Shown one piece after another: positions 7,907 through 64,000 of a stretch of 64,000 nucleotides of DNA. A program made the translations under genes and the position numbers. This DNA is from Muricea muricata (taxonomy: Eukaryota > Cnidaria > Anthozoa > Malacalcyonacea > Plexauridae), in assembly GCA_963855995.1 (NCBI GenBank), contig OY979723.1, forward strand, positions 13,716,713-13,780,712, written 5' to 3'. The stretch's first letter is position 1; the number at the start of each line of letters is the position of its first letter. The notes below the pieces were generated by a model. It was not told where the DNA came from. It did no database searches and saw only the letters and a list, made by a program, of their open reading frames with translations.

Positions 7907-10900
7907 TTAACATTCTGAGTCATATCTTTTGGACAGCGGTTGCCGTTCATGATATTCCCGTTCAGGGAGAGGTGGCTTGGTATCTAGCAAAGCTCTGAAT
8001 GACGTGGCAGCATTGTCGACATCAACTTCCTCGTAATCTGGTTCGATACCGTCATCTGATGCTTCAAGCACTTCATACTTCGGTTTTTTAGGTGAGCGAG
8101 GTTTTGCGCTTTCTATGACGATTGCATCATCCTTCGTCAAATGACAACTGTATCTTGGTGCAGTGGACGAATCCATTGATTCTGCCGAAATTTCCAAGAG
8201 AAAGAAAAAATACAAATTGAGATACATGATTGAGATGAATGAAATACAGAATCTGAAAAATGTTGCTTCTCAAACCACCTCATATAGGGCGGAGCTTTAG
8301 ATTTGAGAACGAGTCCCAGATCGAATACAACTAGACGAGATTTTGAAAACCAGCTACTGCAAAGTTAATAATATCCTGTTTTTTTACACAGATGATCCAA
8401 AACGAAGGCGAATATGTGTGTGGAGGTCTGGAGGAGAGAATTATTAAAAAATAAAAATCTCGTAGTTGTACTCATTTTTGTGGAGGTAGTTGAATTTAAA
8501 GCCCCCAAATACTGCCTTAAAGATATCCCGGAGCAGAAAAGGCAAAAATTAATGCTATTTTGATTCTTACCCATCGAAACAGCGTCCTTTAGAATATTAT
8601 CAATAACATTCTGAAAAGGAAAATATTGTATAGAATGATTTGTTTGTGCACATTCTTTCAATAAAGGTTCTCCTTCCAAAAGCATAAACTGTAAGCTATG
8701 AGCGCGTAAGGGATGATGGGTTATTGCTTATTTTCACCAGACTCGGGATTATTTCTTTTAAACAACATCGAAGGCACGTAGAAGACTTATGCATGATGGC
8801 GGCAAAATTTGCTTGCCACCATTGATCTGAATAATACTGGATCACGCATACATATGCCTCAAGTGAAGCCAGCAGAAATGACGAATTTGGAGTACCAAGA
8901 TGGCGGACAATCAGCATTTTCAATAGATAAATAAACTTCCTTATTTTAAGGAAATTTACGGAAATTGAAAACGCTGCTTAAAAGATTACTCTTACACCCG
9001 CAAAGAACACTGGACCTGGAGTACCAAGATGGCGGCGATGACTTCAAAATTTTATTATGTATGCGCGATCCAGTATTATTCAGATCAATGCTTGCCACAA
9101 AGGTGATTATCACGGGTATCCTATCCCTGAGTATCCACGTTTTTGGAAAGACAACCTTAATTGTAACAGCTGTATCACTGTAAACGAGAGTGTGATCTAA
9201 ATTTGATCTATCCACTGTTCAAGATAGTAAACGGCATGCGAACGACCGCCATTGCAGTCTTATCCAGTATGAACAAAGCTAATTGTTATTTCATCTTCCT
9301 TACCAAGTCAACATCGTCTTTCTGCAGTGACCAATATGGTTCGTAACTTTCTCTTTTCTCATTCAAACTCGTGTAGTTTTCGTTGTCCGAGTCAACGACG
9401 GGAGCAGCTTCTTGAATCAAGCTAAATCTTGCTTCTGTCTTCAAATGAACTAAAACGAGTTCATTCAAATTTAAAGATTTGTTTATCAATGCACTAATTT
9501 GCCCAAGGGAGGGGTACCAGACAAGCCCACGGGATTTCACAGCCACGTCAGCGAAAATGTCAAATCCCGTTGACTAGTGCACATTTAAGTTTTCTTTCAT
9601 CAACGGCAGTTTTTTTTCTTATTTTCTACATTCTAGGTCAAATCTAAGTAATTTATACCTTCAGGTGGTGATTTAGGCGATGCTTCCTTGTTAACTATTT
9701 TAGGTTTGGCTTCATGTTGCTTTCTGTAAAAGAAGAGAAAAAATCCACCTTAAAGTTCGTGCATGATAAAAAGGCCTTTAAAGGGAAATGGCAACAAAAA
9801 ATTTTATTGTCTCATTTGAAAGAGACTCTAAAACAATAAACAGAAGTTTATTGCAAAATTTTCATATCTGTTTTACTTCGGGAGATATTCTCACCTAAAT
9901 CAACAAACTGTCCGCCATCTTGGATTAATTTTTCACCTCATTAACAATGTTTTGGTGACGTCACAACAGGGTAAGCCTGTCGAAAATCCTCCTAAATACC
10001 TACCAACAATCAAATATTGTTTGAAATCTTCTCAGTCCGTGCTGAAATCCGAAATACTTGCCGTACATGCGGTTATGAGAGCATATTAACCATTGTGTCG
10101 TAAGAAAAAAAATCGCGTGATCCCAGTTGTGACGTATCGTGCATATCCACAAATATCCAAGATGGCGGACAACTAAAGATTTCAAGTCAAAATATCTCAC
10201 CAAATAAGGCAGATATAAAAATTCTGTAATAGACTTCTATATATTGTTTTGGAGTCTCTTTCAAATGAGACGATAAAACATTTTGTTGCCATTTCCCTTT
10301 AACTCTAGGACAATCATTTAATCGTGAAATTTTTACTTTAGTAAAAATCGCCTCACGTTTTTGTGATTTAAACCATTTAGAAAACCCAACTTGTATCATT
10401 ATTCAATAATTTATTGAGTGAATCATAAATATCATGTTACTCTTTTCGATTCTAGCAAACTAAAAAGTTTCAATATTTCTTTGGGTGAAGTGCATTGAAA
10501 ATCTTATAGAGTAGGCCCTGGTTTTTCTTTGTTTTAAGCCAAAACATTCGCAAGATGTTAATCACAATATAAGCTTTAAATTTATAGCAAAGTCTTTACC
10601 ACAGGACAAAGCGTTCAAGTTTGAGCTTGCAATGCATGTAAATTGTTGACTGTAACCAATGTTTTTCTTTTTATTTTGAAACAAAATTTTTGCCAAAATA
10701 ATTCAGACAGATTTCATCCAGAATTTTACTGCTAATTCACATCCAATATGCTTTTACTATTCAGACCACTCGTTCGTGCTTGAGCATTGAATGCAAGTCA
10801 TGTATATATTATTGAAGTTAACCAGTTTCTGGTAACATTTTAAACTGAATTTTGGCCTAGAACATGATGAAAATTTATGATTTTAACAAAATTTTTGGTG

Positions 10901-13900
10901 CATTTTGAGCCACAATTGTTACAAATCACTTCAGCGAGATTTGAACCAAGCAGATTGACTGTCAATTTACACGCACCGCCTGTACCACTAGACCACTGCT
11001 TCAATCGTTGTCACACATGTGTTGTAAATTGATTTTAACAAATGTTTCACTACATTTTAACCCAAAATGTTTGCCATAACTTCAGGGACATTTGAACCTG
11101 AGTAAATGCCAATTTACACCAAAGACTGCACCCCCAACCCAAAGACTGCACCCCCAGCCCAAAGACTCAATCGTGAACGTTTGATATAAACTATTGATTT
11201 TAACCAATATTGTAGTGTATTTTAAGACAAAATTTTTCATGCCAATGAATTCAGCGAAGATTGAACTAAACTAAATGACAATTTACACCAAAGACTGTAT
11301 CACTCGACCACATGAGCATTCGTGATCTTCAATATAAGCAAAATCGTTCTCACAAAACTTCAGCTGGGAGATTTGACCAAACTAAATCATAATTTATCTG
11401 CACCAAAGCTTGAACCATTGGACCATACTCATATTTGAGCATGTTTTCTACGTTTCTTTACCAAGCTCTGATGCCAGCCTTGACATGAGCCCTAGTACTA
11501 GCTTTAGCCCTAGACCTAGCTTTACCGATAGCCACAGCCTGGTTTGAATCTCAATATATCTGTAAATGATTTTAGCGATATTTGAACGAGACTAACGGGT
11601 AATTTTACCACTATACGTCACATGCACGTTCATGCTTGACCATGTTGTTGCGAATATTCTGTCTTAAAATAAAGTAAAAATTGGTTAAAGCCATTAATTT
11701 ACCTCCCTGGCAAAAAGCATGAACGAGTGGTCTAGTGTACAGGCTCTGTGGGAATTGCCTGTTACGGTTAGTTCAAACCTCACCTCAGACACTGTTGTGA
11801 ATATTTTGTTTAAAACCAAGTGAAAAATTGGTTAAAGTCAATAATTCATCTCTCATGGCAGAAGTATTAATGAGTGGTCTAGTGGTTCAGGCTTTAGTGT
11901 GAATTATCAATTACGTTGGTTCAAATCTCACTCCATTAAGTTGGGAATATTTTGTTTAAAAATCAAGTTAAAAACTGGTTAAAGTCGATAATTCACCTCC
12001 CATTGAAAAAGTGTTAGTGAGTGGTCTAGTGGTTCAGGCTTTGGTGTGAATTATCAATTACGTTGGTTCAAATCTCACTCCATTCAGTTGTGAATATTTT
12101 GTTTTAAAATCAAGTAAAAAATTGATTAAAGTCAATAATTCATCGCTCATAGCAGAAGTGTTATTTAGTGGTCTAGTGGTTCAGGCTTTGGTGTAAATTA
12201 TCAATTACGTTGGTTCAAATCTCACTCCATTCAGTTGTGAATATTTTGTTTTAAAATCAAGTGAAAAATTGGTTAAAGTCAATAATTCACCTCCCATAGC
12301 AGAAGTGTTAATGAGTGGTCTAGTGGTTCAGGCTTTGGTGTGAATTATCAATTACAATGGTTCAAATCTCACTCCATTCAGTTGTGATTATTTTGTTTAA
12401 AATCAAGTAAAAAATTGGTTAAAATCAATAATTCACCTCTCACGGCAGAAGTGTTAGTGAGTGGTCTAATGGTTCAGGCTTTAGTGTAAATTATCAATTA
12501 CGTTGGTTCAAATCTCACTCCATTCAGTTGTGAATATTTTGTTTTAAAATCAAGTGAAAAATTGGTTAAAGTCAATAATTCATCTCTCATAGCAGAAGTG
12601 TTATTTAGTGGTCTAGTGGTTCAGGCTTTGGTGTAAATTATAAATTACGTTGGTTCAAATCTCACTCCATTGGGAATCTCACTCCGTTGGGAATATTTTG
12701 TTTAAAAATCAAGTTAAAAACTGGTTAAAGTCGATAATTCACCTCCCATTGCAAAAGTGTTAGTGAGTGGTCTAGTGGTTCAGGCTTTGGTGTGAATTAT
12801 CAATTACGTTGGTTCAAATCTCACTCCATTCAGTTGTGAATATTTTGTTTTAAAATCAAGTGAAAAATTGGTTAAAATCAATAATTCACCTCTCGCGGCA
12901 GAAGTATTAATGAGTGGTCTAGTGGTTCAGGCTTTGGTGTAAATTATCAATTACGTTGCTTCAAATCTCACTCCATTCAGTTGTGAATATTTTGTTTAAA
13001 ATCAAGTAAAAAATTGGTTAAAGTCAATAATTCACCTCTCGCGGCAGAAGTATTAGTGAGTGGTCTAGTGGTTCAGGCTTTGATGTGCATTATCAATTAC
13101 GTTGGTTCCAATCTCACTCCACTCAGTTGTGAATATTTTGTTTTAAAATCAAGTAAAAAATTGGTTAAAGTCAATAATTCACCTCTCCTAGCAGAAGTAT
13201 TAATGAATGGTCTAGTGGTTCAGGCTTTGGTGTGAATTATCAATTACATTGGTTTAAATCTCACTCCATTCAGTTGTGAATATTTTGTTTTAAAATCAAG
13301 TAAAAAATTGGTTAAAGTCAATAATTCACCTCTCGCGGCAGAAGTATTAGTGAGTGGTCTAGTGGTTCAGGCTTTGATGTGCATTATCAATTACGTTGGT
13401 TCCAATCTCACTCCACTCAGTTGTGAATATTTTGTTTTAAAATCAAGTAAAAAATTGGTTAAAGTCAATAATTCACCTCTCGCGGCAGAAGTATTAGTGA
13501 GTGGTCTAGTGGTTCAGGCTTTGATGTGCATTATCAATTACGTTGGTTCCAATCTCACTCCACTCAGTTGTGAATATTTTGTTTTAAAATCAAGTAAAAA
13601 ATTGGTTAAAGTCAATAATTCACCTCTCCTAGCAGAAGTATTAATGAATGGTCTAGTGGTTCAGGCTTTGGTGTGAATTATCAATTACATTGGTTTAAAT
13701 CTCACTCCATTCAGTTGTGAATATTTTGTTTTAAAATCAAGTGAAAAATTGGTTAAAGTCGATAATTCACCTCCCATTTCGAAAATATTAGTGAGTGGTC
13801 TCGTGGTTCAGGCTTTGGTGTGAATTATCAATTACGTTGGTTCCAATCTCACTCCACTCAGTTGTGAATATTTTGTTTTAAAATCAAGTAAAAAATTGGT

Positions 13901-16900
13901 TAAAGTCAATAATTCATCTCTCATAGCAGAAGTATTAATGAGTGGTCTGGTGGTTCAGGCTTTAGTGTGAATTATCAATTACGTTGGTTCAAATCGCACT
14001 CCATTTAGTTGTGAATATTTTGTTTTAAAATCAAGTGAAAAATTGGTTAAAGTCAATAATTCACCTCTCATAGCAGAAGTATTATTGAGTGGTCTAGTGG
14101 TACTGGCTTTTGAGTAGGTTATTAGCTTATTAGTTGGTCTGGTTCAAATCTCGCGGAAGTCTTTTGTAAAAATTTTGGCGTAAAATAAAGATGTGACATA
14201 TAAACATTTGAGATTTTTGCCTTGTTGTCACAGCGCTTGGTTCAGTAGTGCAATGATCAAATCAAGTGCCTTACACGTGTGAGGTCGTGGGTTACTTCAG
14301 GTGGGTTAACTTGCTCCACACTAGTGTGAAAGGATCAGTAACCTTATGCTCTCTTATCAGGTTGAGCACAATCCTTCGCAATGTAGCTTAACTCATAGTT
14401 GCAGGCAAGGATATGAGGACGAACAAATGTGTGCAGTTCCAGTTACGGATCTGGTACTGTTTCTAATTCAGCTGAAGACAATATTTTATAATTTCAGTTG
14501 GAGGTTGACTTGTTTGGCTTTACCATCTCATTTTTTTCACGAATATTTGTTATTACATACATGAGCACTGGAATTGTCTCTTTGAGGCTATGCAGTATAA
14601 ACTAAGCAATGCGTATCCTATAACCGGCTTGAAAAAACACAGAGAATGAGCAGGATCACAATTGGCATCACTTTTTCACATTTGGTAGGAATCTTTGTTT
14701 AGTTGAAATCAGGTTATAAATAGTGAAAAGTTGTTTGGAAGCCGCGATCAAGAGGGAGTAATACTTTACTCCGTTATTTTGAAACTCGGATTGAAGGAGA
14801 GTTGGCGGAACTGAGCCTTAAAAAACCAGATGCGCAGAGGACAGTAGTTTTAACGACGGATCATCAAGCTTAAGCCTGTCTTACCGTGAAATTTTAACGA
14901 AAGATCGCTTAGAAAATAATTCTTCAGAAACTCTTAGCCGGATCGATAGTGGTTTTTAGATAGAAAATATCGACTAACGTTTGTTTACACAGTTTCCACG
15001 CAGTTTCATTTTCGGATTATTCACATGATTGGATACCATTGGCATTGTTCTGGTTTGCGGATGAGTACATTAGGACAAAAGTAACCAGGCATACGAGTGA
15101 TAAATACGAATTATTCACCCATGTCATGCTTCTAAATGCGTAGTTACTTTTGTTCTCCGTTACGCTGCCGCAAGCTAATATAATACTAACTAGGTACGTG
15201 AGCGATCTTAAAATGTGAATTAGGTATAAACAAAAGTTAGCGATTGTGTCTATTGATGAGAATTATATTAAGAATGCATTAATTTCATTTTCAACTCTCA
15301 TGCAAACTCTCGTTACTGAGTTTTCGTAAGCTGTGAAACTCATCTTACGATTTACCATAGTTAATAGAGCTAGATGGTTTGGAAACTCATTAGAACTACA
15401 ATATAAGTCATTATCTATGTTTTTGTTCTGGTTTATGCAGGAATGAGGTCCTTCGTCGTCACGGGCGTATTGTATTTTCACCTAACTAACCAATAGCAAC
15501 GTTTTAGGAAATTTAGCCATCCGCGACTTGAACAATAGGGTAATTTAAGAACTCCTATTGGTGGATTTGGCGAAAACACAATACACACGTGACGATGAAG
15601 AACACATTTTTGAATAAACGTTGACCAACATAGATAATGAGTTATATTGTTATTCTAATGAGTTTCCAAACCATCTTCTCTATTAACTATGGATTCACAT
15701 ACCTGATTCGATGACGTACACAGCAGACGGCCAAGATGATGATGATTAGGATAACGAAGCCCACTCCAGAAGAAACTCCAATGATAACAGGCATAGAAAC
15801 ATTGTATGTGTAGTTTTTGTTTATAACACTTTTCTTTGTAGTTCTGAAAACTATTGTGGAACGAAGCGACGACCCAGTCTAAATAAAATGATTTCGTATA
15901 TAGTTAGTAACGTTGTATTTCTTATACTTCTAATGTTGATGTCAAGAGAATTAACGGGCTATCAATGCAATCAATGCACTATTCCCCTTTTAGACAAACC
16001 TTTAAATTAGGAATTTTCATTAGCACAGCTGGAAAGAACATCCTAAATTTAAAAAAAACATGGTGACGTTTGGTTGCAAAATATTGTAAAATGTAGAAAG
16101 TATAGCCCTGTGAAGTTTGCAAATTCTGTATACTTTCATATTATGCGCGAGAAAGTGTGATCACATTTCGAATTCTGAATACACTTCTCCGCGCATAATA
16201 CAAAAATATACAAAATTCGCAAACTTCACAGGACTATATTTTCCATATTTTACAACGTTTTGCACCCAAACTTCACAATTTTACTAAATTCAGGATGCTC
16301 TTTCCAGCTGTGCTAATAAATATTCTCAATTCCAAAGTTTGTCTAAAAGGGGAATCGTCCATTGTAAAAGAAATTGAAATAAATAATAAAGTTGAAACTG
16401 GACTAAGTTTTCGGGTTAGCTACGCCTCTGGGCACTTCTAAGTGTACATCATACAGGTTAAAAAGTACCTCTGGTTTAGAAGATGGACGATTACTTTGTT
16501 TCGTTGTAGCCATTATTGTAGTTGTTGAAGTTACATCAGCTGAAACAACGATAAATGACGGAATTACCATTGCTGAGCTAATACGGGGTAGTTTTTGCCA
16601 AGAGATCTACGCAACTGTGAAATTTTAACCAAAATCTGATGGTAAACTACTGAAAACGTATCCCATAACAACAAGAGTGCTTTCTCTAAGTTTATTTTCT
16701 TACCAAGAATTTGATGGCCTTTACTTTTAAACAGGAAACAGCCAGTCTGCTCGTGAGGATCTATTTTTGTACGACAAGAAATCTGTAATTTTATTATTCG
16801 TCCATAATAGAAATCGCCCACATTTTCCCACTAAAAAAGGCAGAAAAGAATAGATAAAGGAGAGAGGGATAGAGCTTCCCTGCTGACAGAGGTCTAGATA

Positions 16901-19900
16901 GAGCAAGTGTACTAAGAAATTAAATGAGAAATTTCTCTATGTGCTCGAGAACATTTTTAACCAAATATTTCAATGGCATTTGAGGAATAATCAAAACCGT
17001 TCTACGCACTTCAAAAACAAAATTCAGTGATATTGCAATGAAAAATCAATGCGAGAGATATCTGTCCTCCAATCCTTTTCTCTTTCGGTGGAAGTCTACG
17101 ATTCTTGCTTTTAAAGACAAACATACACACGTGCCCATAACTGAAATTTCAGTGGTGAAGCCGAGCCGACAATTTCGTCATGCCATGCCTATTCGTTTCT
17201 TTATAAATCAATCGTAGAAATATTTGCATGCAGTCCGGCAAAAAGAAGGAAAAATTCTATTTCAGAACCATCCTCAGAGATATGAAAAACTAGATTCATA
17301 TTAATCTGACACTGCAGAGAACAACGAAAAATTCGTTGTCTCGAGCAGGATTCGAACTCGCATCTTCGGGTTTCTAGACCGCCGCTCTACCAATTGAGCT
17401 ATCGAGCTAACTGGGATTGGTAGCGAGTCTTATCCGATTTAAGTGCACGAAATATTTTTGTGACGACTTAACGCTTGTCTTTGAGGACGCGCAGTGTTTC
17501 AATTCTATCTCAGAACCATCCTCAGAGATACGAAAAACTAAATTCACATTAAATTAGCCTTTTTCGTGTGCCTTTAGGCCTATCAAGTCTATATCTGGAT
17601 GTTGGCCATACTCAAATTGCTTGTGTACTCTTGCCAACACTTTTTTTCTTCCGTTGTAAAATAAGGTGGAATTTCATGTTCATTTTTTGAAAAATAACTT
17701 ATGTCATAAGAAAGTTCATATGAAACTACATATAAGACAATTAAATAGTTAACTTGATTTTTCACGCGGTTTGCAAGTTATTCCTGCTTCAAAGTGCCCA
17801 AAAAGGATAAAATGTCGCGAAATTCCTGGGAACTAATATCCTCAACAAGAAAAACTTATAAACTCAACAAGAAAAATCGACCTTGCTGTTGAATGGTCTT
17901 ATTACTCTAATATGTAGTTTTTATAAACTTTCTGTAAACATAAGTTATTTTTGACATAAATTAGCATCAAATGTTATCTTTTTTGACAGTATACGAGTTT
18001 TACAGGAATATTTAAAAAAAATCTTGTTGGCAGGAGCCCACAAGTAATTTAAACGCGTCCAACATCCGGAAATGCAATTGCTAAGCCTAAAGGTACAAGT
18101 AAAAGGAAAAATGCAATTGTCCTGTGAGAAAATTCTTTTCTTGCCTTATCTGCCAGACTAACAGCATGATTGTCAGGTTAGCATCGATACCGATAACTTT
18201 AGCGACTAAAATAGATGTATTGTTCTCTTACATTTACAGAAAGGTAACGACGGATAGCCCAACCCTCGTCAACGTCGTGAACTCGAGGAAGTAGTACATC
18301 AGTAATGTTTGGGACAGCAACCCATTTCCCTTGACTGTCAAACAAGCTTGTTGTGTTCTGGATCTCACAGATAAGTTCACCTTGTGGAAGCTGGCCTAGG
18401 AAATCCTTTGAATCAGTCACACTGAAATCCAACGTCGGCAATTCCGTGTCCACGTAGCCATCATATGCATCTAATATACCTTTGTAACGACAATCTGAAA
18501 ACGGAGGAAAATTAATGTTTTATGTTGTAGGTTTCCAGTTTTTGCAGGCGACGAGTGATGACTAACCAGTAATTATATATAGATCAAAAGAATAACAGAT
18601 ATTTCAATCACGTGATGCATTTATGGTGTTTGGGGGGCTAGGCAGGAGTTCAAAGGTTACTGAGGTCAAGAACATGCTTAGCTTTTGAACATATTTTCTA
18701 AATTTATAAGATAAATATTAATAATAAAGAAGTGGATGGAAGATGATGAAAGCTCGAATCTTAACCTAGGTAAGCGTTGTTTGTTTTGGTAAAACTAGAG
18801 CTTTTAAAGCGTGTGTTTGCAAGCTCCTAGGGCGGCATTAACATGTTCATTATCAGATCAAGTGACAATTTAGGTCTGTTTCAAACGTCTAATTTTGCAT
18901 GCATCGAATGGATTTCAAACAATAGATAATGAGATGCTAACATCATGCAAAATTCGACGCTTGAAACAGACCTTAGTCTTATTAATGCTTATTGTGTTTA
19001 GTTTCTTATTATTATAAGATAAACTAGTTTGTTGTGGAGGTCATAAAAGCACACACAAGCAAGTGTATTTCCATGATACAAGCAGCACTAAGAGGGAAGG
19101 ACCTGCCCTTGCAGAGCAAGGCCCTTGCTTTGGTTTCATTAAACAATGAACATACACTCTGTATAATAATGACGTCTTATGAAGTCAAGGTATAAGTTAC
19201 TGAAATGAAGCAAGACCCAAAATGACCCTAAATAGAGTCAATATATCACCATTATGTAGCATTTGTGTCTTCTTTTATTCAAGTAACTCATCTTGAGTTT
19301 ACAAGAGGTCATTATTATTGAGAGTATGTTTTTCCTTATATTCCTTAAAATGTCTGCTGGTAAAAGATATTGAACAATGAAGTTCCTGAACGTTACAAAA
19401 ATGCACAAAAATATGTGAGTGTCGGACAACAGGTGATTCAACCATTGCAATGTGAACTAAACTACGTCGGTTATATCGATAATTAAGGTAGATATATCAA
19501 CATGGCGAATTATTTAGAAGTAATATTTGCAAGTGATATCTTCCACCACCTAGCGCAGTTGTTTAACAAGCAAGTGATATTGCTTTTAACTTCCACTTGA
19601 ATGTTATTGACATTGATGAAGATGGGGTAAAATGCCACACAGATTATGTAAGAGAGAAATTTTGCAAGCGACCTCTCGATAGTAGTGATATTTTGATAGT
19701 GATGAAGGCAGTGTAAGATGTTGCCCAGATTATGAGAAGGACATTTAGAAAGCGATGTAAGACACACCCAGTACAGCTGTTTGTCAACCACACCTTTCTT
19801 AAATTGCTCTATTGTTGTGGACTTCCCATCAGAGTGTTATAGATAAACTCATGTGGGTGTATGTGTGGGTGGCAACACAATCCTTGTGTACCAGAAATAT

Positions 19901-50147: not shown

Positions 50148-53100
50148 TTAGCTTATCACCGTGACGTACGACTCCTCAGGTACGACGACTGAATCAGTGG
50201 GTACGAGGTAACCATCATCTGTGTCCTCTTCTTGTGTTTCTGGTTCCGATTCTATCGCTGTGACGTCCAACTCCTCAGGTACGACGACTGAATCAGTGGG
50301 TACGAGGTAACCATCATCTGTGTCCTCTTCTTTTGCCTCTGGTTTCGATTCTATCCCTGTGAGGTACGACTCATCACGTATGACGTAATCATCATTTGTG
50401 TCCTCATCTTTTCCTTCTGGTTTCTCGTTCGCCGGGATGTTCGATGCTTCCATGAAATCATTTTTGATCACATAATCTTCTTCAATTTCATTTAGTTCTT
50501 CACGTGTTGTTTCGTTATTCGTCTCCGGTCCATCATAAGAAGCGTAATCATAATTGAGAGCTATTGCAGTTTTATCCACATATTCATATTCGTGTTCACA
50601 AGGTACTTCATATTGTTCATCAGGCTGGTTGTTGTGTGAAGGTTGAATTAAACTCAAGGGCACTAATGCTTCTTCATGTAGTCGATTTTGTTCTGTAATC
50701 AGATATTATACATAGTATAAACTGTATTGTTTTTGAAGATTAGTCTTCTTAATATTATCATGGATAGTTAATGAAATGGATAGGAAACTATAGCTGGCGT
50801 CAGTGATGAAACCTAGTTGCGATTCGTGATGTCACGAGTGATTGCGAATGTTTTATTTTGCTATCTCTTCCGATTTCAAACAGTAATATTGAAGCCTAAA
50901 TTCGTTTTATTGTTTTACAAACATGCCTATCCCACGACAAAGTATTTGAGGTAAATGCTTCACGTCTTTGTTTTGAATTTTGCTACTTTGGTAGCTACGA
51001 AAATGACGTCTCAACAACTACCGTTGATTGAACTGAAATTTGGAATGCAGTGTTAATTGTTTAGTTTTTGAAATATTTGCGAGAATAGACTAGAAATACT
51101 TAGATATTTCATAATAGAATGGCGTAGTCAAATTTATTTGTTTTTGATTTAAAATGTTCAGCTGTATTTTTGCTAAGTGTGTAGTTATTTGAGAACTTGG
51201 TGATGTCATAATTTGCAGCGAGGTTGAAACGCCATCAGCACACTGAAACCATCACACGCGACCACGAGTTTCCTATCCACTGACTTCTTTAAGTATCCAT
51301 GCATGATATTATATACCTCTGCTTCCTTCGTTTTCGTTCTTTGCACGCACATGTCTGTAAAGAATAACGTCCTAACATAACTATAAGCTATATGATTGTT
51401 AATCACGCACATCTTGTATAGCAGCAATACCAATATTAGGCAATAAGGTTTCCTCTTGTGGGAGAACATCACAAACGATTAACTCCTTTCACAATGAAAG
51501 TGGAACAGTATACTAGTAAAGATATAGGTAATAAATTGTTCTTCGATCCGACATAACGTTTTCCAAGTATCATCGTGTAAATAAAGTTGAAAGAAGCTTA
51601 CCTTCGTCTTTTGTAGCAGAACAGAGATCCCATTGCGAGTGCCAACAGCATTACTAGACTAACGCTAACAGCTATAGCCAAAATAGTGGTATTGCTGTCA
51701 ATGGTGCTGTTATCCTGTTATAAGAAGATTAGATGGTCACACAATGAGATTTTCGATGTTTTAAAAATTACTATCATAATTGTACTTTTTTAAACTACTT
51801 GAGTTTAATTGTACGGTTTTTGCTTGGTTAAATGCGGAATGAATATCGTATATACCTTTGGCAGGCTTGGTTTGGGATCATTTTCTTTAGAAGTTGAAAA
51901 TGAAATGTCTGTTGTGGGATCATTTTCTTTAGAAGTTAGAAATGAAATGTTTGTTGTGGGATCATTTTCTTTAGAAGTTGGAAATGAAATGTCTGTTGTG
52001 GGATTCTTTTGGTTGTTACAACCTGTGGGAAAATGTTCCATAATACGTGAGGATCGCTTCATCAAATCCATTTCAAAACAGTTTTGGCACTTAAAATAAT
52101 AGTCTCGTCGAGATTTCGTTACAGGATTTTGGTTCATTCATGCAATAATTTTTTGTAAATATATATACTTCTTTCATTGGTGCTTTAATTTCTGACAATC
52201 TTTGTCAAAATCGACGATGCGCATTTGGAATCCGTAGACAGTCGGTAGCATCATTGATCTCGATCTCAAGCCTATGTGTCTGATAAAACTAATAGATTTT
52301 TCGTTTTAAAATTTTAAATAATCTAATCCCTGACCCAAACCCTAAACCTAACCCTTACAAAAATCGTATAAAAGGGAAATAACCTAAGAAAAAAAGTTTG
52401 ACGAACTTTAAAAATAAAAAAGCCTCGGGTGGGATTCGAACCCCTGCCTATTCTATTAGAAATCGCACGCCTAAACGACTGATCTAACAACGAGCTAGCT
52501 GAAAATCTAGAAACTAGATCAATGATGCTACCGGCCGTTAAAGACGCTACCGACCGTCTACGGTTTCTAAATAAGCATCGACGATAGCAGCGGAAGACTG
52601 TTTAGTTCCAGTGTTTGTTTTGCTTTCTGCAAAAGTCTCGTGAACAAAAAACAATCGTGTGTAGTTTGAATGTACAGGCTCGTCGCTATCATGTCTATAA
52701 ATTTAATTTGTTGGTAGATTTTTCTTGAAAGATAAATTGTGATTGTAATTTAATCAATCAATGTGGTCAGTGGTGTTTTTTATTACTTGATTTTTTTTGA
52801 GAAAATAATGAACATGAAGTAGTATTAATATAAAGCACGCATTGCGAGTATTTTAAATAGCTTCAAAAACGATCCATTTTATACCCATCTTGTCAATTTG
52901 TTTGCGAAAGAATTTTCAATATAGATGTTGTATAAGCCGAGAAATTTGAGGCTAAAGGCTTCACGGCTATAGTTTCCTTTGTGTTTTGTTCATGAATTAT
53001 TAATGTTAGGTAAAGTTCACATCATCATTATAGTTTAAATACGTACATCTTGTTTGAAAGACTGAAACAGATTTTGCCACTGTAGTAGTCTTTTCGTTTT

Positions 53101-53357
53101 GGTCGTTATAACATAAAATTGTTAGGTTAAATGTAATGTTTCCAAGAACGGGACCGTCCGTCAAGTTGCACTAAAAGGAAAATGATTTAAATGAGTGTAA
53201 ATTTTACTATGTTGTAAAAAATAGTAAGCTTCAATGTCTTAACCATGAGTTTATATGCAATCACTAAACTGAACATTGTTACTTCAGTCTTTTCAGGGTT
53301 TGGTAAGAGGGCATATTGTATTTAATTTGGCAAGAGGGCATATTGTATTTAATTTAT

Positions 53358-53456
<99 letters not shown>

Positions 53457-56245
53457 TTATGATAGGTGATATGTAATACCGTAAGGATGAATTCGTCTTC
53501 AACTTTTCTGAAGGATAGCAATTCTGAGATGTTTTCGGTGGAAACGTCAGTGTTGTCTAGTCTAAACACTGTTGATTCTTCCCACTGAATGCGGCAAACT
53601 TTCGTTTTCTCGTCTGTTACGTCAGGTGTTTCAATTTTTGACACCAAACAAATATTTCCGTTACAATCTTTGTCCAAATCCACAATGGGGATCGGTGATC
53701 CAGTGTTCGGTTTCTTTTCTGTAAAAAAATTATTTTGAATCGTACAATTTGTTTTTCTTATTATAGTTGTTCAAAATATCAAAACTATCTAAAAATTCGA
53801 GAGAAAAAAATCGTCTGTATAGCTTCTTTGTAAGAGAGGTCGTCGCTGTTTAACACATTCCATATTGTCAGAAACACATAAGTTCCTGCAGTTGTTTTTC
53901 TATTCACGGCAAAGCCATGCAATGAGCTTCCATATAGCTTTGAGGATCAACATCCTATAAACAACCTTTGAAATTTAAAACCGATTATATAAATATATAC
54001 CTTTTATTCTTTTGATTGTAATATTTTTGACTCGAAGGTGGAACTGGAACTCTTCAAACTTTCCGTTGTTTTTTTCACACTCTACCGTTAGATCCAGTGT
54101 TTTTCCTGCCAGTCTTGTATGAGGATTTGACTGCCACTAAAATATTTCCGTGTAAGGACTCAGCGGGAAAAAAAGGATTATATGCAAAGAGTCTAGTAAC
54201 ATAAAGCACCAGCTGATCTGACCGTGAGTAAAAGGCCTGGAACTAGCCACCAAATAGAAATCCATTTTGCTGTTGTTAATCACTTATATCTTTTGTTTTC
54301 CTTTGTGAATCTTGTTGAAACTTAGTAACTGTCTTTAATGAAGAAAATTATAAGTCTGCCAGAAGTTTAGAATCAAAGTAAATTATATTTCATGAGAAAT
54401 TTGATAACTTGAATTTCTACTTGACAACTAGTGCCAGTACTTTTCCGTGTTTTCAGATCAACTAGACTATAGCTCCCTTATTTGTATCAGACTGTCTTCA
54501 TATGTGGATAGGATTAGACATAAGAGATAGACAAGTAAAGATTAGATAGCATATGCAATTAATATGGAACCATTCCTCTCATGCATAGTGAAGGTCTTCT
54601 GTAAGGAAATTTCCTTTCATTGTGGAGCTCTGAGATTAAGGTTGGGTCATAAGGGTATGGTCATATGTTGATCACAAGATTTGGGTTAAGGCAGATTATG
54701 GGTGGATCAGTAGTTATATATTGTAGCCATTCTAAAATATCGGTTGTCAATAAAAAATTACTGATTAATTATGTTCTTACCAGAAAGTACACGCCATCTT
54801 GTCGATTCTCAACCATGAATGGTTCACTGTAGGAAGAAAAATTATTGTCCCATAAAAGTGAACAGTTTGACAAATTGTCGCTGCTCGTCGATGTAAATAG
54901 TTTCCTGGAACATTTGCCATTAGTGCACAAGGGTACCAAGTCAATCTGAGATATTTCTTTATTTTCATCACTCAAGTAGAAAATACCTAAATGGTCAGAA
55001 TAAACGTAGGTTATTTAGTGGTTGTTAGTAACAAAAGGCAACCCCGCATTACAGACTAAAACCCGGGTTGATGTTTTATAAAAACTGATTTTAGATTATG
55101 GAAATATTCTGACTGCATGATTTAGTTTATTGCCTTTATTGTCCCTGGCAGAGCAAACACTTTTGTTGTTGGTCGGAAAAACTGTCCAAGTATTTTCATC
55201 ATTCACTTTTACTGCTACGCTTCTTGCAACTAATCTATGATCGTTTTCATCATATCTGACTGCGTAAGTTGTGTTTGGCGAATCAAATGATATTCCCCAA
55301 AGTAATGTCCTCTCCTCACACCGCCATTTTTGTCGCAAATCTGATGAACTGCATGGTTTCATGCTCAAAGGCAAATAATCTCCTCCTGTATTTGTTATTT
55401 GCAGACATCTTGATGTTCCAACATTCATAAGTAAGTTTCCTGGCGTCCACAGCCACACAATACGAGGATCATTAAAACTACAGAATCTGGTATATTGAAT
55501 GCTACTACTTGTGGTTGCTCGGGCACACCGTTTGTAAATAGGATTATAACTAAGAAATCTCTCGCCAAATCCAGCTGCGAAAACAAAAAAAATTATTGGT
55601 ATAAGTTCTGTTCGCACAAGTCTGAGTTTTGAAACGCGTTAAATGGAGTAGTTAAATTGTTTATCAAAGTTTCTTTTTATCAGATATTTTGGTCTAAAAC
55701 GGTCGACGTTGTTCTTCTTTTGTAACAAATTTCTAATGTAGAAGTTTCCTTAACCTTTTCCAGGAACTTTTGGTAATAAACAATCCGTTGTAGAGTTGTT
55801 GTTGTTGTACAAGCGTGGGATGCGACTATGTAGTGAACTGCACATGTTCCGCATGCACATATAAAAATAATACCTTACAATACTTACCGGCGTTAAAAAG
55901 ACTAGTTTGACTCAAGCACAGCGCACCATATTTTTTCTCGATATAGAATATTCTTGCTGGACTTTTTAAACATACACAGTTTTTGCAATTCTCAACATCA
56001 GCTTGCTGGCATTCCCTGCCAAGATTCACGCATTTACAATCCATGTCCCAATTATTTCGAGCCAATTTGCGACAATCTTTCAACATGTACATTTTTTTAT
56101 TTTTATACTTTATTTCAAACATGGCTCCGTTACTAGCCTGTCCATCGCAGAAATTAATAAAAAATATGGTAATTATGAATATAACTGGAGCTGCGGTTTG
56201 TCGACATGTTTTGTAAAGCTTTGGGCCAATATTGATATGATGCAT
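50148..56245 (-). CDS. R5: lectin receptor with two C-W/W-C domains, repeat stalk and acidic Tyr tail
   Basis: Exons: 56245-55888, 55574-55134, 54986-54781, 54136-54001, 53718-53480, 53170-53047, 52022-51856, 51714-51602, 51354-51317, 50692-50148; 2367 nt, 788 residues. Same order as R4: leader FIITIFFINFCDG, CKNCVC...Y...C module, lectin, two C-W/W-C domains. Its own exon encodes a stalk of three 15-residue repeats (SKENDPTTDISF type). Membrane span ILAIAVSVSLVMLLALAMG, then YKRRR. The acidic tail has YEVP, YEYV, YDYASYDG, EDYVIK, two DDGYLVPTDSVVVP copies and a terminal YVTVIS. The lectin exon must be spliced at a GC donor (55132-55133), where R4 and R6 have GT; all other junctions are GT-AG. 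Tail homology is to R6 rather than R4. Function inferred as a surface lectin receptor. Confidence 0.82.
50150..50370 (-). repeat. 99-bp coding repeat in the R5 tail
   Basis: Units begin near 50161, 50260 and 50359 (plus coordinates), the third partial. Each encodes 33 residues containing EEDTDDGYLVPTDSVVVPEE. The repeat multiplies a YLVP motif, so tail docking capacity can change by repeat number. Confidence 0.85.
51856..52022 (-). repeat. 45-bp coding repeat forming the R5 stalk
   Basis: Three copies of a 45-bp unit (DPTTDISFPTSKEN) make up most of this 167-nt exon, phase 1 in and phase 0 out. Ser, Thr and Pro content fits a glycosylated spacer above the membrane. Confidence 0.85.
52232..52563. 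mobile_element. TIR element with tRNA-like core
   Basis: Terminal inverted repeats of about 29 bases: CCGTAGACAGTCGGTAGCAT at 52232 and its near-complement, with an internal partial duplication, ending GACCGTCTACGG at 52563. Inside, 52427-52497 on the minus strand carries a perfect B box (GGTTCGAATCC) and a weak A box. Near 52327-52358 lies a run of CCCTAA-like motifs. Non-autonomous, in an R5 intron. Confidence 0.7.
53362..53451. repeat. (AT)n microsatellite
   Basis: About 90 bases of pure AT dinucleotide, 29 bases into the R5 intron after donor 53480. Frames through it reading YIYIYI are artefacts. Confidence 0.95.
55134..55574 (-). other. Ricin-B lectin exon of R5
   Basis: 441 nt, phase 1 on both sides, aligned with the R4 and R6 lectin exons: GERFLSYNPIY, VWLWTPGNLLMNVGTSRC, QKWRCEERTLLWG, NTWTVFPTNNKSVCSA. 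It is four codons shorter than in R4/R6. The donor reads AAAG|GCAATA, a non-canonical GC site. Confidence 0.8.
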
Positions 56246-56278
56246 TTCCTGACTTACTGGTGTTTCAAGCACTTTCCA

Positions 56279-57650: not shown

Positions 57651-57702
57651 AGTTTATGTTAGGTTTTGAGAGGTTTTTGTTAGATTTGGTCAATGTATGT
57701 AA

Positions 57703-58924: not shown

Positions 58925-59070
58925 CACTTGTGCTAATTTGTCGTATAGTGCTGGTTTATTATACTGCGTTCCCATTGCCCTCGCTTCAGGTTCACGTGCT
59001 ATATGATCATAATGTGTTTCCACTTTTGCTTCTGGTCGTGTGAATTTGTCGTACAGCTCATGATGACGTG
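58925..59070 (-). pseudogene. Orphaned tail-end coding sequence of R6
   Basis: Directly after the R6 stop, the minus strand stays open in another frame to a TAA near 58925. It encodes HHELYDKFTRPEAKVETHYD, then REPEARAMGTQYNKPALYDK. KVETHYE and KVETHYD form a repeat that starts upstream of the stop in this frame. Regular YDK/YNKP motifs show it was coding. Confidence 0.7.
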
Positions 59071-62000
59071 CTACCTTTTCATAGTGTGTTTCCACTTTGT
59101 TTCTTGTATTGTTGTGTCGTACGGCTCATTTTCGTAATTTGTTTTCACTACTGTTGTTTTTCCTCCATCATTTTTGATAACATAATCTTCATCGTCAACG
59201 CTTTCCAGTTCCACGCTTCTCTTCGAGTTATTTTGTCTTGGTCCATCGAAGGCTGCATAATCGTAAGTGGCGTTTTTTGGAGGAACCACCAAACTTTTGC
59301 TGATGTACTCGTACTGGCATTCATTAGGTTTTTGTTGCTGTTCAGCTTGCTCTTGACTGATGCTTGACGGATGAACGGGAGGCACTGGTGATTCGCCATG
59401 TGGTTCATTTTCATCTGTAAGTTATGATAAGACAAACTACAGTTGACTATAAGAGGTCGAAATCATTTACTAATCATGTTTCTTCGTCGACGGACCATGC
59501 TGTAAACCACCATTGAAGGGGCGTTAACCAACGAGCCAAAATCTGGGTTGTGTACTCAGATTTTAATTTGGTTCTAATTATGTGTAGATATAAACTTCTC
59601 TAGGCAAAATTGAAATTTTGTTTGAAAATTCAGTTGACGTTTGAATAACAACGAATGTCCTATTATTGTTTATATCTCTACATATTGTAGTGTTTTCCAT
59701 ACCTCTACTTTCTTCAGGATCCTGACCATTTGAACGAGCATGTACACGTCTATGGAAAAAGGTTGTAATTTGTATTGGCATATTTTATATGTGTGAACTT
59801 CATCATCTGAAACATTGCTCATGAAAAACCTACATTCTGAAACATTGTTTTTTTTGTTAAAATTTTAAATTACATTTAAAGCATCTAACAAATCTTTTTT
59901 TTCCTAATACACGATCTGGAAAGTTCCTGACTCGTGACGCTCCGAAATCCCTAAATGGTTATTCGTTTTGATTAGACGTACCCTGTTACTGACATACAAA
60001 AACTTACCTTCTCTGTCTTTTGTACCAGGCCAAAGCTAGTGTCAATATTATGAGAACACAAACACCAGCACTTCCACCTACCAACATTTCGTCGGTGTAA
60101 TTGTCATTATAGCGGGAAGATTTTATATTATTCATCTATAGGAAGATTTTATATTATTTACATTGTGAAATAGTCACTGCAACACGAAAACTGTTTGAAT
60201 TTACTTTATAAATCCGGCATGAAAGAGTTGCAAATGACCAATTGTATTAATATAAAACTATGCTTTACTCTTTATCTATTCAAAGACAATTTGCAGTATT
60301 TTTTTAACAACATAGCTCAAGAATCATTGAAAAATTTTGAAACATCAACTATTACGGCATGGTAATATAAACATACATACCTCTAAGGGTGTTGTCAGAT
60401 TTAACTGTAGACAATACGTCTTGCATCCACACTGAATAGAAATGTTTAACAGTGAACCACTCCAAACCTTAAAATCATCCATCGTAGCGAACTAGAGGGG
60501 AAATATGAAATGTGAAAACTACATTTTAATCATATGTCAACATATTTCAGGTACTCAGGTGAAAATCATGTTTGTGGTGTTACTTTGAGTCTATGTCCTC
60601 ACTTGCCAAGTTAATCTGCAACGTTTGAAATATGCTGCAGCCCATTTTCCTGCCAACTCAGTAATATACGCTGTCAGGTCAGTTCACGAATGCATGCATG
60701 ATATTTCTAGTTCCTTCAATGTTAACGTAATCTCAAGTGAAAATGATAAAAATCATTGTTTTAAAATTACGTTGCTGTCGAGGTAACTAGTTTCGAACTG
60801 TAGTTATGTCACATGCTCGAACCGACCTGACAGGCACGTAGCTTATTGGGGTGTGGCATTATATTCATTCCATTCCCATCACATTCGATTCCCACCGTAA
60901 TCAGACATATTTTTCAGCATGCCTGAAGTGGTACACTGAGTCCATAATACGTCTATAGTTCAGATCTTTGTAAATGTATTCGTATACCGTCAGTTCTATT
61001 ATACTGCTCGTTTTATTGCTGACATCAAGGATGTTGCCAGTTTCGTTTCTCCATTCTCCACCATCGCGCTTTGATTTAAATTCCTCGCTTACTTCACAAT
61101 CATTATTTTCTCCAGAAATTGGAATAAAAACGTTTATTTTGGATTTCTTTTGCTTGTTGTAAGAAAGTTGGTGCACCCAAGAGCAATCAGGAAAACGCAA
61201 CGGCTTACACTCTAGAAAATATTCGATAATGCTCCAGGTCTCCTAGTTGTGTAGTTTCAGTGATATTTGGAGATCAGTGCACACATAAACATTACCAAAA
61301 CTACACAATGAGTTGGCGACCAAGGATAACATGCCAGGATTACAACAGTCAAATTACTTTCAAAACAATTCTATCAAACATGCTATTAACATACTAATCA
61401 CCAAACAGACCTAACTAAAAGAGATTTCATCGACTATCTGTCTTCTCGAACAAACATTGCCCTATCGTATCGTGTTATCTATGGTTCGGTTAGGAATTTT
61501 TCCAGTGTAAAATTCTAGTGCTTATGAGAAGGAATTAATGCACCGTATATTGCTATCCTGTTCAACAGAAATTTGTTTTGAGCATTTGAACATATATGTG
61601 TTGTTCCAAAAATTGAATAAATGAATTGTATATTTATTCATTTCTAATGAAGTTTAATTTTATACAAAATGTACTAATTTATGTATATGAATATTCGTTG
61701 ATAAATTTGACCATCATTTTGCTGACATGCACGTTATACTTATTTCCAACAATTTGTGGCTGGCATTGTGTTGACACAAAAGCCAAAAGAGTTGGTAGGG
61801 AAAACTGTCCAAGTATTTCCATCATTCACTTTTATTTTGAAATCTCTTACTACTAGTTTATTTTTCTTTTATCATCTCTGACTACTTGAAAAAATTCGGA
61901 AAGTAACTTTAGGCAACTTGTATGCTCAATTGTATACCTTCCATTGTTCTGATTGTAATATTTTTGACTCGAAGGCGGAACAGGAACTCTTCAAACTTGG

Positions 62001-64000
62001 TATTGTTTCTTACACACTCTATGGTTAGATCCAAAGTTTTTCCTGCCAGTTTTGTATAGGGATTTGACTTCCACTAAAATATTCCAGTGTATATAAGAAC
62101 TGAGAAAAAGTTTTGCACAAAAAGCCTGGAACATAAAGCATTCCGTGCCACTGTAACTGTCTTATTTCAAAAAAACTGCCCTCCTGTGGATAGGATTAGA
62201 CCATGATTAGACATTAGAGATAGGAAAAGAGGTTTTGAAAAGACTGCATAATAAATAAGTAATATTGATCCTTTCTTCTCATAGTGGTGGTCTTCTGCAA
62301 GAAAATTTTCATCGATTGTGGAAGTTTTGGCTTATACGTCATATGTTGATCACAAAATCTGAGTTAACGACTATGCTTGGGACATTTTGAAATATGTTTT
62401 CGGTAGAAAATCATTGATCGTTGATTTACTTACCAAAAAGTAGATGCCATCTTCTCGATTCTGAACCATGAATGGTTCACTGTATGCAGAAAAGTTCTTG
62501 TCCCATAAAAGTGAACAGTTTGACAGATTGTCGCTGCTCGTCGATGTAAATAGTTTCTTGGAACATCTGCCATTAGTGCACGAGGGTACCAAGTCAATCT
62601 GAGATGTTTCCTTATTTTCATCACTCAAGTAAAAACTACCTAAACCAGTATAAGATTACAAGTTAATTTTTCTATGCACACAGATTATGTAGTGATTAGT
62701 AAGCGAGCTCACACTCAAACTAAAATCATTTTGTATTATGGAAATATTCTGACTGCATGATTCAGTTTATTACCTTCTCTAGGCCTGGCGGAACAAACAC
62801 TTTTGTTGTTTGTAGGAAAAACAGTCCATGTGTTGGCCTTGCTCACTTTTACTTTTACACTTCTTGCTTTGATAGCTTTCTCTGTGTCAGTCTTATAATA
62901 TCTGGCTGCGTGAGTTATATTAGGCGAATCAAATGATACTCCCCAGAGTAACCTCCTCTCCTCACACCGCCATTTTTGCCGCAAACCTGATGAACTGCAT
63001 TGTGTTAAGCTCATGTCTAAATAAGGACCCTTCTTGTTGTTCGTTTGTATGCAGGTTGATGTTTCAGCATTCATAAGTAAGTTCCCAGGCGTCCACAGCC
63101 ACACATTACGAAGATCATTAAAGTTGCAATCTTCGGTATGTTGGACTCTACCAGTTGTAGATGCTCGAGCACACGGCACTGGTTTGTAGGTAGGATTGTG
63201 AATAAGAAATCTCTCACCAAATCCAGCTGTGAAAACAAAAAAAGTCAGCTACTGATTCTCGTGTACTTAAACCCTCTGGCGGAAACGCTTTTGCGTGCAT
63301 GTACTTGTGTGAAAAATCTCCTCCTGTCTTAATGAAATAGAAATGTAACTGATATAGAAATATGCTTGAATGTATTTCGTTTTTAAAACACATATATAGG
63401 AGGCAATATTCGATGCTGTTCAGGATATTCTATAAACGTGCATGTATAGCATCAAAATTAAATTTTCTGCATCGGCAAAGAAACCTTTACGTGATGTGAA
63501 CGTTGATGTTTCGTTAATGTGTTCCAAGACGTTTAAAATTCACATGCTGCCATTTGGAATTTAATGTATTTGTAAAATTTGGTACATTTAAACACGGAAT
63601 ACAATATATTGTTTTAGAGATAAACTTCACCTTATGGGTTTTTGGCTTCTCGAGTTAGAGGAGCTGACGTCATTTAAGCCATTTTTGAAGCACGAAACAA
63701 TGGAAAGCTCATTTGCATTAATTTAAATGACAACAGGTCCAGTAACTTGAAGAGCCAAAAAGACCATAAAGATGGCTTTTTTCTCTTGGAATAAAACTTA
63801 CATTTCCTGAAATGTCTTAAATATCACAAATATGTCAAACTCCCCAAAGGCCGCATGTGCACTTCAGGATGGTGCTTATTAATTGATAAACTTCATGAGT
63901 TGTAGACTATATACCTGGCCGTATATTGACGAAGAAGTGTAATACTTATAGCTTACCAGCATTAAAGAGATTATTTGGACTCATGCACAGCGCACCATAT
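59071..64000 (-). CDS. R6: lectin receptor, 5' end outside window, tail truncated by frameshift
   Basis: Exons seen: 64000-63957 (end of the N-terminal module, YGALCMSPNNLFNA), 63226-62774 (lectin), 62639-62434 and 62073-61938 (first C-W/W-C domain), 61211-60937 and 60491-60381 (second, diverged: extra Cys in CGCKTYC), 60135-60008 (membrane span MLVGGSAGVCVLIILTLALA, then WYKRQRR), 59749-59703, 59414-59071. Phases fit throughout, with a weak donor at 60936. There is no separate stalk exon. The tail shares YEYISK, YDYAAFDGP and EDYVIKND with R5. It ends at a TAG (59071), but a one-base shift near 59095-59118 reopens a Tyr-motif frame of about 50 codons. The lectin exon is nearly identical to that of R4, so R4 and R6 are the closer pair in the ectodomain. 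Confidence 0.75.
62774..63226 (-). other. Ricin-B lectin exon of R6
   Basis: 453 nt, same length and phases as in R4. Carries GERFLIHNPTYKPVPCARAS, VWLWTPGNLLMNAETSTC, QKWRCEERRLLWGV and NTWTVFPTNNKSVCSA. Canonical GT donor. Confidence 0.8.

Follow-up and report, generated by a model that had tools for sequence, protein, structure and literature searches.

Introduction

The locus described in the present work, a tandem array of receptor genes whose left end occupies a 64-kb window of octocoral DNA (C8:13716713-13780712, within a 453 Mb genome; “the window” denotes this whole stretch), is best introduced through the described systems that lie closest to it. The allorecognition complex (ARC) of Hydractinia consists, according to the available portion of PMC11067881, of clustered genes encoding single-pass proteins with variable ectodomains, and immunoreceptor tyrosine-based activation and inhibition motifs (ITAM and ITIM) on candidate allorecognition genes of Hydractinia are cited in the accessible part of PMC12065747. 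The same partial source describes the FcoR proteins of Botryllus as type I receptors encoded at one locus (fuhc), with long tails that bear ITIM, hemi-ITAM (hemITAM) and a YxxI/L/V core, and reports for fester and uncle fester that the 3' exons are common to both and the 5' half is not. Siglec-11/16 and the CEA family combine near-identical ectodomains with different tails and involve gene conversion (PMC3533184, PMC5701461 and PMC2832619, each as far as its text was available).

The six genes of the window, R1 to R6, were proposed in an earlier note, made from the DNA letters alone, to form a cluster of modular single-pass receptors of the kind found in immune or allorecognition complexes. 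The reading favoured here, with moderate confidence, is that approximately two dozen tandem octocoral type I receptors, mosaic in their combinations of ectodomain and tail, make up a paired-receptor system for innate recognition. Its layout is familiar from immune and self-recognition receptors, while its set of parts is unfamiliar.

Results

Extent of the array

The surroundings of the window (C8:13657213-13920212) were surveyed on both strands with iterated family profiles at a threshold of E <= 0.01. The survey found 23 copies of a cysteine module with a CxxCxC pattern (the Sha-type module), 21 lectin exons, and 24 first exons (E <= 0.01) together with 25 second exons of a domain encoded by two exons, all of them on the minus strand. 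The family is counted as 24 genes (R1-R4, R6 and G06-G24), since the weak Sha-type module of G17 (E 0.0093) is taken together with 23 others; R5 sits among these genes as an extra, non-family member, which brings the total to 25. The array runs from approximately 13.725 to 13.916 Mb on C8, a distance of about 190 kb, and continues for about 136 kb beyond the window, to approximately window coordinate 199,800 (here and below, positions above 64000 are window coordinates outside the 64-kb window). The six-gene cluster is real, but a lone cluster of six was rejected, as the window genes form the left edge of an array about four times larger. A membrane span followed by basic residues was located in all 25 genes by a script that demanded an uncharged span, and a Tyr-rich tail open reading frame (ORF) was picked for 22 of them; G14 is without a lectin exon.

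The right edge of the array probably lies near 13.916 Mb. When the whole genome was queried with the G23 lectin, only the best candidates being scored, nothing matched on C8 at coordinates above this point, and whole-genome queries with the Sha-type and two-exon sequences overlooked even known right-hand genes of the array. A dispersed relative, with Sha-type and lectin exons in the order seen in the array, is present on the plus strand of C3 37533500-37543499 (local positions 1131 and 7949); near it, an ORF at local position 9346 resembles a THAP domain by eye. Sha-type and two-exon matches also occur on C1 near 26.77 Mb, and further lectin exons of the same type are found elsewhere in the genome.

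Mosaic combination of ectodomains and tails

The evidence that carries the favoured reading is that the outer and inner halves of these genes do not always have the same closest relatives. Ectodomain and tail disagree in their nearest neighbours for 8 of the 22 tails (those of G09, G10, G18, G19, G22, R1, R2 and R3). The Sha-type module, lectin and first two-exon domain of R1 are nearest to those of R3 (88-95%) and its tail is nearest to that of R2, while the R2 tail is itself nearest to G12/G11 and the R3 tail has no good match (best E 0.01) and no significant match to the tail of R1 or R2. Similarly, G22 is nearest to G23 in its Sha-type module and lectin (88-92%) and to G21 in its tail; G10 is nearest to G11/G12 in its ectodomain and to G06/G07/G13 in its tail; the ectodomain of G19 is nearest to G18 and its tail to G24/G23, with the G18 tail nearest to G20; and G09 combines an ectodomain nearest to G16/G08 with a tail nearest to G11/G12/R2. 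The neighbours agree for the tails of G06/G07, G11/G12 and G23/G24, and also for G20 with G18. Inherited tails are not fast-evolving, since the tails of G11 and G12 (89% identical) are more alike than their ectodomain modules (68-76%).

The exchanges are also visible as breakpoints in the DNA, which makes the earlier claim of swapped modules stronger than it was when first put forward. Homology stops between ectodomain and tail in 6 of the 19 gene pairs compared. G22 and G23 share 1,541 bases at 94.6% identity, ending at 183779, which is 30 bases into the transmembrane (TM) exon, and the homology of G22 with G21 (69-77%) extends beyond this break and through the tail. G10/G11 homology (74-91%) ends at 94914, 0.1 kb past the TM exon, and G18/G19 homology (65-83%) at 163182, 0.4 kb past it. 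Other breaks fall further upstream: R1/R3 homology (80-81%) ends at 61915, past the first two-exon domain and far short of the TM exon, and G08/G16 homology (74-89%) ends at 82283, also before the TM exon, beyond which G08, a gene without a clear tail ORF, is similar to G09 across the TM exon and the G09 tail region. The R2/R3 break (homology of 70-79%, ending at 53039, past the second two-exon domain) carries less weight because the pair is older, and it depends on the dissimilarity of the tails. Homology is kept through the tail in G11/G12, G23/G24 and G06/G07. No DNA match was found for R1/G07, R1/G06 or G10/G06 among the 19 pairs, and the protein-level links between the second R1 domain and G07 and between the G10 tail and G06 are therefore older.

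By these comparisons the array contains what defines paired receptors, closely similar ectodomains on different tails, most clearly in G22/G23. An artefact of assembly in which unpurged haplotypes appear as separate genes was considered and rejected: near-identical ectodomains bear unrelated tails, and the copies are therefore not two haplotypes of one gene.

Identity of the ectodomain modules

The CxxCxC module had been described as unrecognised, which is not wholly the case, since it matches the Pfam family Sha_B_N (PF23328): R6 scores 28.5 bits against a cut-off of 24.4 (E 1.8e-6), and R4 scores 21.4, below the cut-off (E 3e-4). Sha_B_N is matched at E <= 0.1 by 3 of the 16 module members scanned, the others joining through the family profile, and when 16 of the 23 modules were combined into a profile, nothing in the PDB matched it up to E 5. 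The name of the Pfam family suggests a rival explanation, that the array encodes receptors for cell identity or morphogenesis, acting in adhesion or in nematocytes or sensory hair cells. Drosophila Sha is tied to actin-based hair formation, and the shavenoid literature, in the portions that were available, deals mostly with insect trichomes, wing hairs and scales. The N-terminal module is, however, the only part that the array has in common with Sha, and local tandem expansion with mosaic tails would be unusual for genes of this kind; the explanation is accordingly regarded as improbable.

The lectin, whose presence was correctly noted earlier, can now be named. The top PDB match of a profile built from 14 lectin exons, of the 21 present, was the cysteine-rich (CysR) domain of the mannose receptor (1FWU/1DQG, E 4e-11), followed by mannose receptor 2, the PLA2 receptor and ricin-type lectins. 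At E <= 0.1, the same number of exons scanned against Pfam matched Ricin_B_lectin in 14/14 cases and CysR_MRC2_N (PF24562) in 9/14, and the R2 lectin exceeds the cut-off of the latter family (E 6e-8). By sequence, the lectin of the array is a mannose-receptor CysR domain. Predicted AlphaFold structures of the lectin and of a three-fold repeat found in R4 (predicted local distance difference test scores, pLDDT, of 36 and 45, respectively) did not reach a quality at which folds could be compared.

The two-exon domain is marked by conserved cysteines and by a motif, GxLxKLxIxC. Its 15 spliced members matched no convincing Pfam family (best MAM, 0.026, in 1/15) and no convincing PDB entry (best 0.57), and neither database supported by sequence an assignment to the fibronectin type III (FN3) or immunoglobulin (Ig) domains. 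The R4 three-fold repeat, which recurs on C6 and C16, matched no Pfam family and gave nothing significant in the PDB. For R3, the spliced ectodomain matched Ricin_B_lectin only in Pfam (E 0.025), with no fibronectin type II (FNII) or C-type lectin domain, and no such domain was found at E <= 0.1 in six further models scanned through the TM segment (G06, G10, G14, G16, G20 and G24, of 19 made). These six produced 22 Pfam rows, none of which reaches its cut-off: 6 rows are of lectin type and, of the remaining 16, 15 overlap the TM segment. No Ig match was obtained from the PDB, or from Pfam for the Sha-type, lectin and two-exon members scanned, the spliced R3 and the six further models. The Ig domains of Alr proteins are known to escape sequence profiles.

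Tyrosine motifs of the cytoplasmic tails

The tail set consists of 22 ORFs that together contain 281 tyrosines. Measured against shuffled tails, the YxxI/L/V motif is overrepresented (99 observed, 42.8 +- 5.7 shuffled, 20 in reversed tails), as are YxxP (39 vs 23.0), YxYA (24 vs 1.0, with 9 of the 24 outside G06, G07 and G10) and YxxLE (24 vs 1.5, with 6 of the 24 outside the same three genes). ITAM-like pairs of the form YxxL/I-x6-12-YxxL/I number 15, compared with 1.33 in shuffled and 0 in reversed tails, and are distributed over 7 of the 22 tails (7 in G06, 2 each in G07 and G13, 1 each in G10, G17, G19 and R5); without G06, G07 and G10, 5 pairs are left, against 0.73 in the shuffles (p 0.0015). 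YEYV/I (or YQYVD) and YDYA occur together in the tails of R1, R2, G10, G11, G12 and G22, and singly elsewhere. The tyrosines lie in a context that is acidic at -3 and +4 and hydrophobic at +3, with few basic residues, in an analysis that omitted the first 30 residues of each tail ORF; such a context is expected of SH2 ligands. The tail of G06 (66098-68203, outside the window) is a repeat-built ORF of 702 aa in which ITAM-like units and YTYAKD motifs each occur seven times.

The lectin and the YxxL/I/V enrichment together raise the possibility of endocytic or scavenger receptors that clear glycoproteins or take up symbionts or microbes, the Tyr motifs being sorting signals for AP-2. Mannose receptors, in which CysR is the N-terminal domain, are endocytic, and YxxL/I/V fits an AP-2 signal. 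Long tails (96-702 aa, with 6 to 53 Tyr) that hold ITAM-like pairs, YEYVD and YDYA..DGP are nevertheless unlike AP-2 sorting sequences, and tail swapping would be unexpected in a pure uptake receptor; an endocytic or scavenger role is regarded as improbable.

Structure of the window genes

The exon joins given here were predicted from splice signals. A mechanical splice chain was completed for 19 of the 22 genes tried (the exceptions being G23, R1 and G17), and because the chain demands a phase match at every junction, only the sameness of phase across genes is informative. In the predicted models the lectin exon has a phase 1 donor in 18/18 lectin-bearing genes, the leader exon a phase 1 donor in 17/19 and the TM exon a phase 2 donor in 18/19, and the internal junction of the first two-exon domain is in phase 0 in 17/19. 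The script differs at this junction in R2 and R3, where reading by hand gives phase 0 and indicates that the script picked the wrong junction. Donors of the second exon of the two-exon domain are mixed (12 in phase 0, 9 in phase 1).

The modules, spans and tails previously assigned to R1-R6 are at the places claimed for them, all on the minus strand. By the family profile (both strands, E <= 0.01) the CxxCxC module is present in R1, R2, R3, R4 and R6, and R5 has no significant copy of any shared module (Sha-type independent E-value, iE, 2.2); the core is therefore common to five of the six genes, as had been proposed, and R5 shares the layout only. The two-exon domain, likewise claimed for five genes, is significant in R1, R2 and R3, but weak in R6 (second exon iE 0.022, first exon iE 14) and no more than pattern-like in R4 (iE 2 and 3.5 for its first and second exons, respectively). 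A span followed by basic residues, expected from the leader, span and stop-transfer arrangement claimed for the cluster, is present in 6/6 genes, with no charged residue within the six spans. A Tyr-containing tail ORF was chosen in 6/6, although the link to the R6 tail is uncertain. Also as described, the inserted modules are lectin exons in R1-R3 and, in R4, a WSC domain beside the three-fold repeat.

The leader and CxxCxC (Sha_B_N-like) exon of R1 enters the window with its 3' end (63958-64000) and continues to approximately 64281, the fetched DNA beyond the window completing the exon. It is followed by the CysR/ricin-B lectin exon (62774-63226, phase 1 at both ends), the two exons of two-exon domain A (62434-62643, start approximate, and 61939-62073), those of a second two-exon domain (60950-61115, divergent, G07-like, approximate and below the profile threshold, and 60381-60470), the TM exon (60007-60135, approximate) and a tail exon with YEYI, YDYAAFDGP and YVIK (59074-59421). 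A fragment of a lectin exon in an R1 intron (61776-61868, minus strand, matching part of the R3 lectin at 42% identity with E 3.5e-5) is probably a relic of duplication.

R2 comprises leader and CxxCxC (55888-56245), lectin (55132-55574, end approximate), two-exon domains A (54781-54986 and 54001-54136) and B (53480-53718 and 53021-53170), TM (51602-51714) and tail exons (50151-50705), the last with YEYVD, YDYASYDGP, YVIK, YVIR, two copies of YLVP and YVTV. R3 has the same order: leader and CxxCxC (46758-47109), lectin (45828-46280), domain A (45515-45720, with the hand-chosen phase 0 donor ATG|gtaagt, and 44965-45100), domain B (44415-44656 and 43929-44052), a stalk and TM exon (43105-43252) and a proline-rich tail exon (40381-41020) with YEQPL, YDQPL, YDKPL, YEYATR and YDVLE. 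Directly upstream of the R3 TM exon, a tandem array of 36-bp units (43263-43630) gives a stalk-like N-S-T-I-D-S reading that is broken by stops in the R3 TM frame; a similar NSTIDSNT stretch precedes the R2 TM segment.

R4 has a leader and CxxCxC exon (38377-38706), a weak, degenerate two-exon domain (36950-37432; exon 1 at 37151-37432, exon 2 at about 36950-37064), the WSC exon (36520-36801, Pfam E 2e-15), the three-fold repeat exon (35736-36104), a Ser/Thr stalk and TM exon (34264-34668) and a tail exon with an ITIM-like STYESI (33699-34037). R5 (28266-32380) has a leader ORF at 32171-32380, a Cys-rich ORF near 31136, a TM segment at 29005 and a tail ORF at 28266-28553. R6 consists of a leader and CxxCxC exon (23853-24209), a weak, degenerate two-exon domain (16700-18519; exon 1 at 18235-18519, exon 2 near 16803), a TM exon (15690-15878) and a candidate tail exon with YEVLE and YEEV (7910-8269), which lies 7.4 kb from the TM exon. 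Between these last two is a 147-bp tandem repeat of 16.7 copies (11647-14110), and a tRNA-Ser (AGA) is predicted within R6 (17335-17409, minus strand). EPTP (EAR) repeats lie on the plus strand immediately left of the cluster (5705-7568, E 5e-47 and 2.5e-12), and outside the window an ORF of 395 aa between G16 and G15 (141926, minus strand) resembles, by eye, a SAP-domain or mobile-element protein.

Mitochondrial genome

A mitochondrial contig of 19.3 kb has cox2-atp8-atp6-cox3 on one strand and nad4, nad5, nad2, mutS, nad4L, nad3, nad6, cob, nad1 and cox1 on the other; cox1 and mutS were identified by Pfam, and the remaining translations are those that we take to be the genes named. One ORF of 985 aa contains MutS I, III and V and HNH domains (Pfam). 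A mitochondrial mutS is a hallmark of octocorals (PMC3166940, available in part), and the host is an octocoral because its mitochondrial mutS has an HNH end and the genes are in the octocoral arrangement. A medusozoan host, which the orientation of cox1 and cox2 had suggested, was rejected on the same grounds. The contig also holds an ORF of 190 aa between nad4 and nad5 (2842-3414, minus strand), and a second cox1-like stretch, a strong match with one stop, at C1:38414782-38416095 is possibly a nuclear copy of mitochondrial DNA.

Discussion

Several of the results weigh against a paired-receptor system for innate recognition. Three of the 25 genes (G08, G14 and G15) are without a clear Tyr tail ORF. 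Seven of the 15 ITAM-like pairs lie in the repeats of G06 and 2 in G07, both G13 pairs begin within 30 residues of the ORF start, in a stretch that is possibly intron, and without G06, G07, G10, G13 and R5 there are 2 pairs against 0.59 (p 0.12); the enrichment of ITAM-like pairs holds for a few tails and not for the family as a whole. Compared with shuffles of the 22 tails there is no enrichment of strict ITIM (14 vs 9.9), of the immunoreceptor tyrosine-based switch motif (ITSM; 2 vs 2.3), of YxxM (1 vs 2.3) or of YxN (10 vs 20.7), and the significance of shuffling is in general overstated because repeats and the tails of related genes are not independent. The YxxL/I/V motif can also serve as an endocytic signal. 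In the clearest exchange, the first exon of the G22 two-exon domain is at the protein level slightly nearer to G21 (88%) than to G23 (85%); at the DNA level it is far nearer to G23 (dS 0.03 vs 0.25). Finally, the ratio of nonsynonymous to synonymous substitution (dN/dS, Nei-Gojobori method with bootstrap intervals), computed on concatenated ectodomain modules for 11 pairs, lies between 0.30 (R1/R3) and 0.87 (G10/G11) and is in no pair significantly above 1; seven intervals lie below 1 and four span it. Diversifying selection is not demonstrated, because no ectodomain interval lies above 1. In module-by-module comparisons, computed for pairs with 55% identity or more, positive selection is likewise not claimed for the lectins of G10/G11/G12, whose pairs give 1.02-1.12 with intervals that span 1, or for the first two-exon exon of G22/G23, where 2.46 is computed on a single synonymous difference (interval 0.53-3.72).

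The selection results bear on a further rival, an octocoral allorecognition complex in which polymorphic self markers or their readers would act at colony contact, in the manner of Alr or fester-FcoR but on a lectin scaffold. Octocorals are mostly colonial, and the host is one of them. The genes form one dense array, are mosaic and have Tyr tails, and the ARC (PMC11067881) and FuHC (PMC12065747) are, in the available portions of these sources, clustered membrane receptors with Tyr motifs. On the other side, the lectin and Sha-type modules come with no Ig sequence match, and ectodomain dN/dS does not exceed 1, the R1-R3 pairs being constrained (0.30-0.35). An allorecognition complex of this form is considered unlikely. 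The co-oriented array, shared core, recent duplicates and signalling-type tails on which the original comparison with immune and allorecognition complexes was built are all supported, and it is this anatomy, with the parallels to ARC and FuHC, that suggests such a function.

Assuming that the genes are expressed and spliced as predicted, a paired-receptor system could work as follows. A typical receptor would carry a leader, the Sha_B_N-like cysteine module, the CysR lectin and one or two of the orphan two-exon domains, followed by a stalk, a single span and a tail in which several tyrosines could be phosphorylated. Tandem duplication, together with recombination in the region of the TM exon, would have enlarged the family, and it is because of such recombination that similar ectodomains would bear different tails. 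The outer modules may bind microbial or self glycans or glycoproteins, and the tail tyrosines may be phosphorylated by kinases of the Src/Syk type. Differing tails, some ITAM-like and activating and others not, would attract differing SH2 proteins, and one ligand could therefore be read with opposite or different outputs.

A bolder proposition, which is put forward only tentatively, is that the array is a self/non-self complex of octocorals built on a lectin instead of an Ig scaffold, which diversifies by exchange between a recognition half and a Tyr-signalling half. If this were true, the paired-receptor principle would have been invented independently outside vertebrates and tunicates, and would include receptors such as G06, in whose tail seven ITAM-like units are arrayed. 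The locus is a specific candidate that can be mapped, and its signalling motifs are open to testing. One recognition surface served by several tails may arise from unrelated domains (a lectin here, Ig elsewhere), and such pairing from unrelated domains would indicate a general design rule for innate recognition.

The earlier note knew of no named family with this combination of parts, and none came to light in the libraries and papers searched. The literature covered, which for the most part excluded subscription papers, contained no family with this architecture and no octocoral allorecognition or paired-receptor locus, and a term search of the available text of PMC8260672 and PMC7563517 gave no mention of ricin or mannose receptor. 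With Drosophila Shavenoid the array shares an N-terminal Sha_B_N domain, while its remaining modules match no Shavenoid model. As in the mannose receptor family (MRC1, MRC2, PLA2R and LY75), a CysR domain lies near the N terminus; unlike that family, the array gave no FNII or C-type lectin match in R3 and the six further models, has Tyr-rich tails and consists of clustered genes. It resembles the Alr/ARC system of Hydractinia in being a cnidarian cluster of single-pass receptors with variable ectodomains, and differs in that Alr proteins belong to the immunoglobulin superfamily (PMC11067881, in its available part), whereas the array has a CysR lectin and a Sha_B_N-like module with no Ig sequence match.

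Like Botryllus FcoR, as far as the source consulted describes it, the array encodes type I receptors at one locus with YxxI/L/V tails; unlike FcoR, a tunicate receptor with Ig and sushi ectodomains, its clearest cases are those of a similar ectodomain with a new tail. That arrangement, similar ectodomains joined to different signalling tails, is the one described, in the available accounts, for the paired receptors of vertebrates, of which KIR and LILR are further examples, although the ectodomain folds are others. The activating members of vertebrate pairs often use a charged TM residue to pair with adaptors, whereas the six spans of the window are uncharged and some tails of the array themselves hold ITAM-like pairs.

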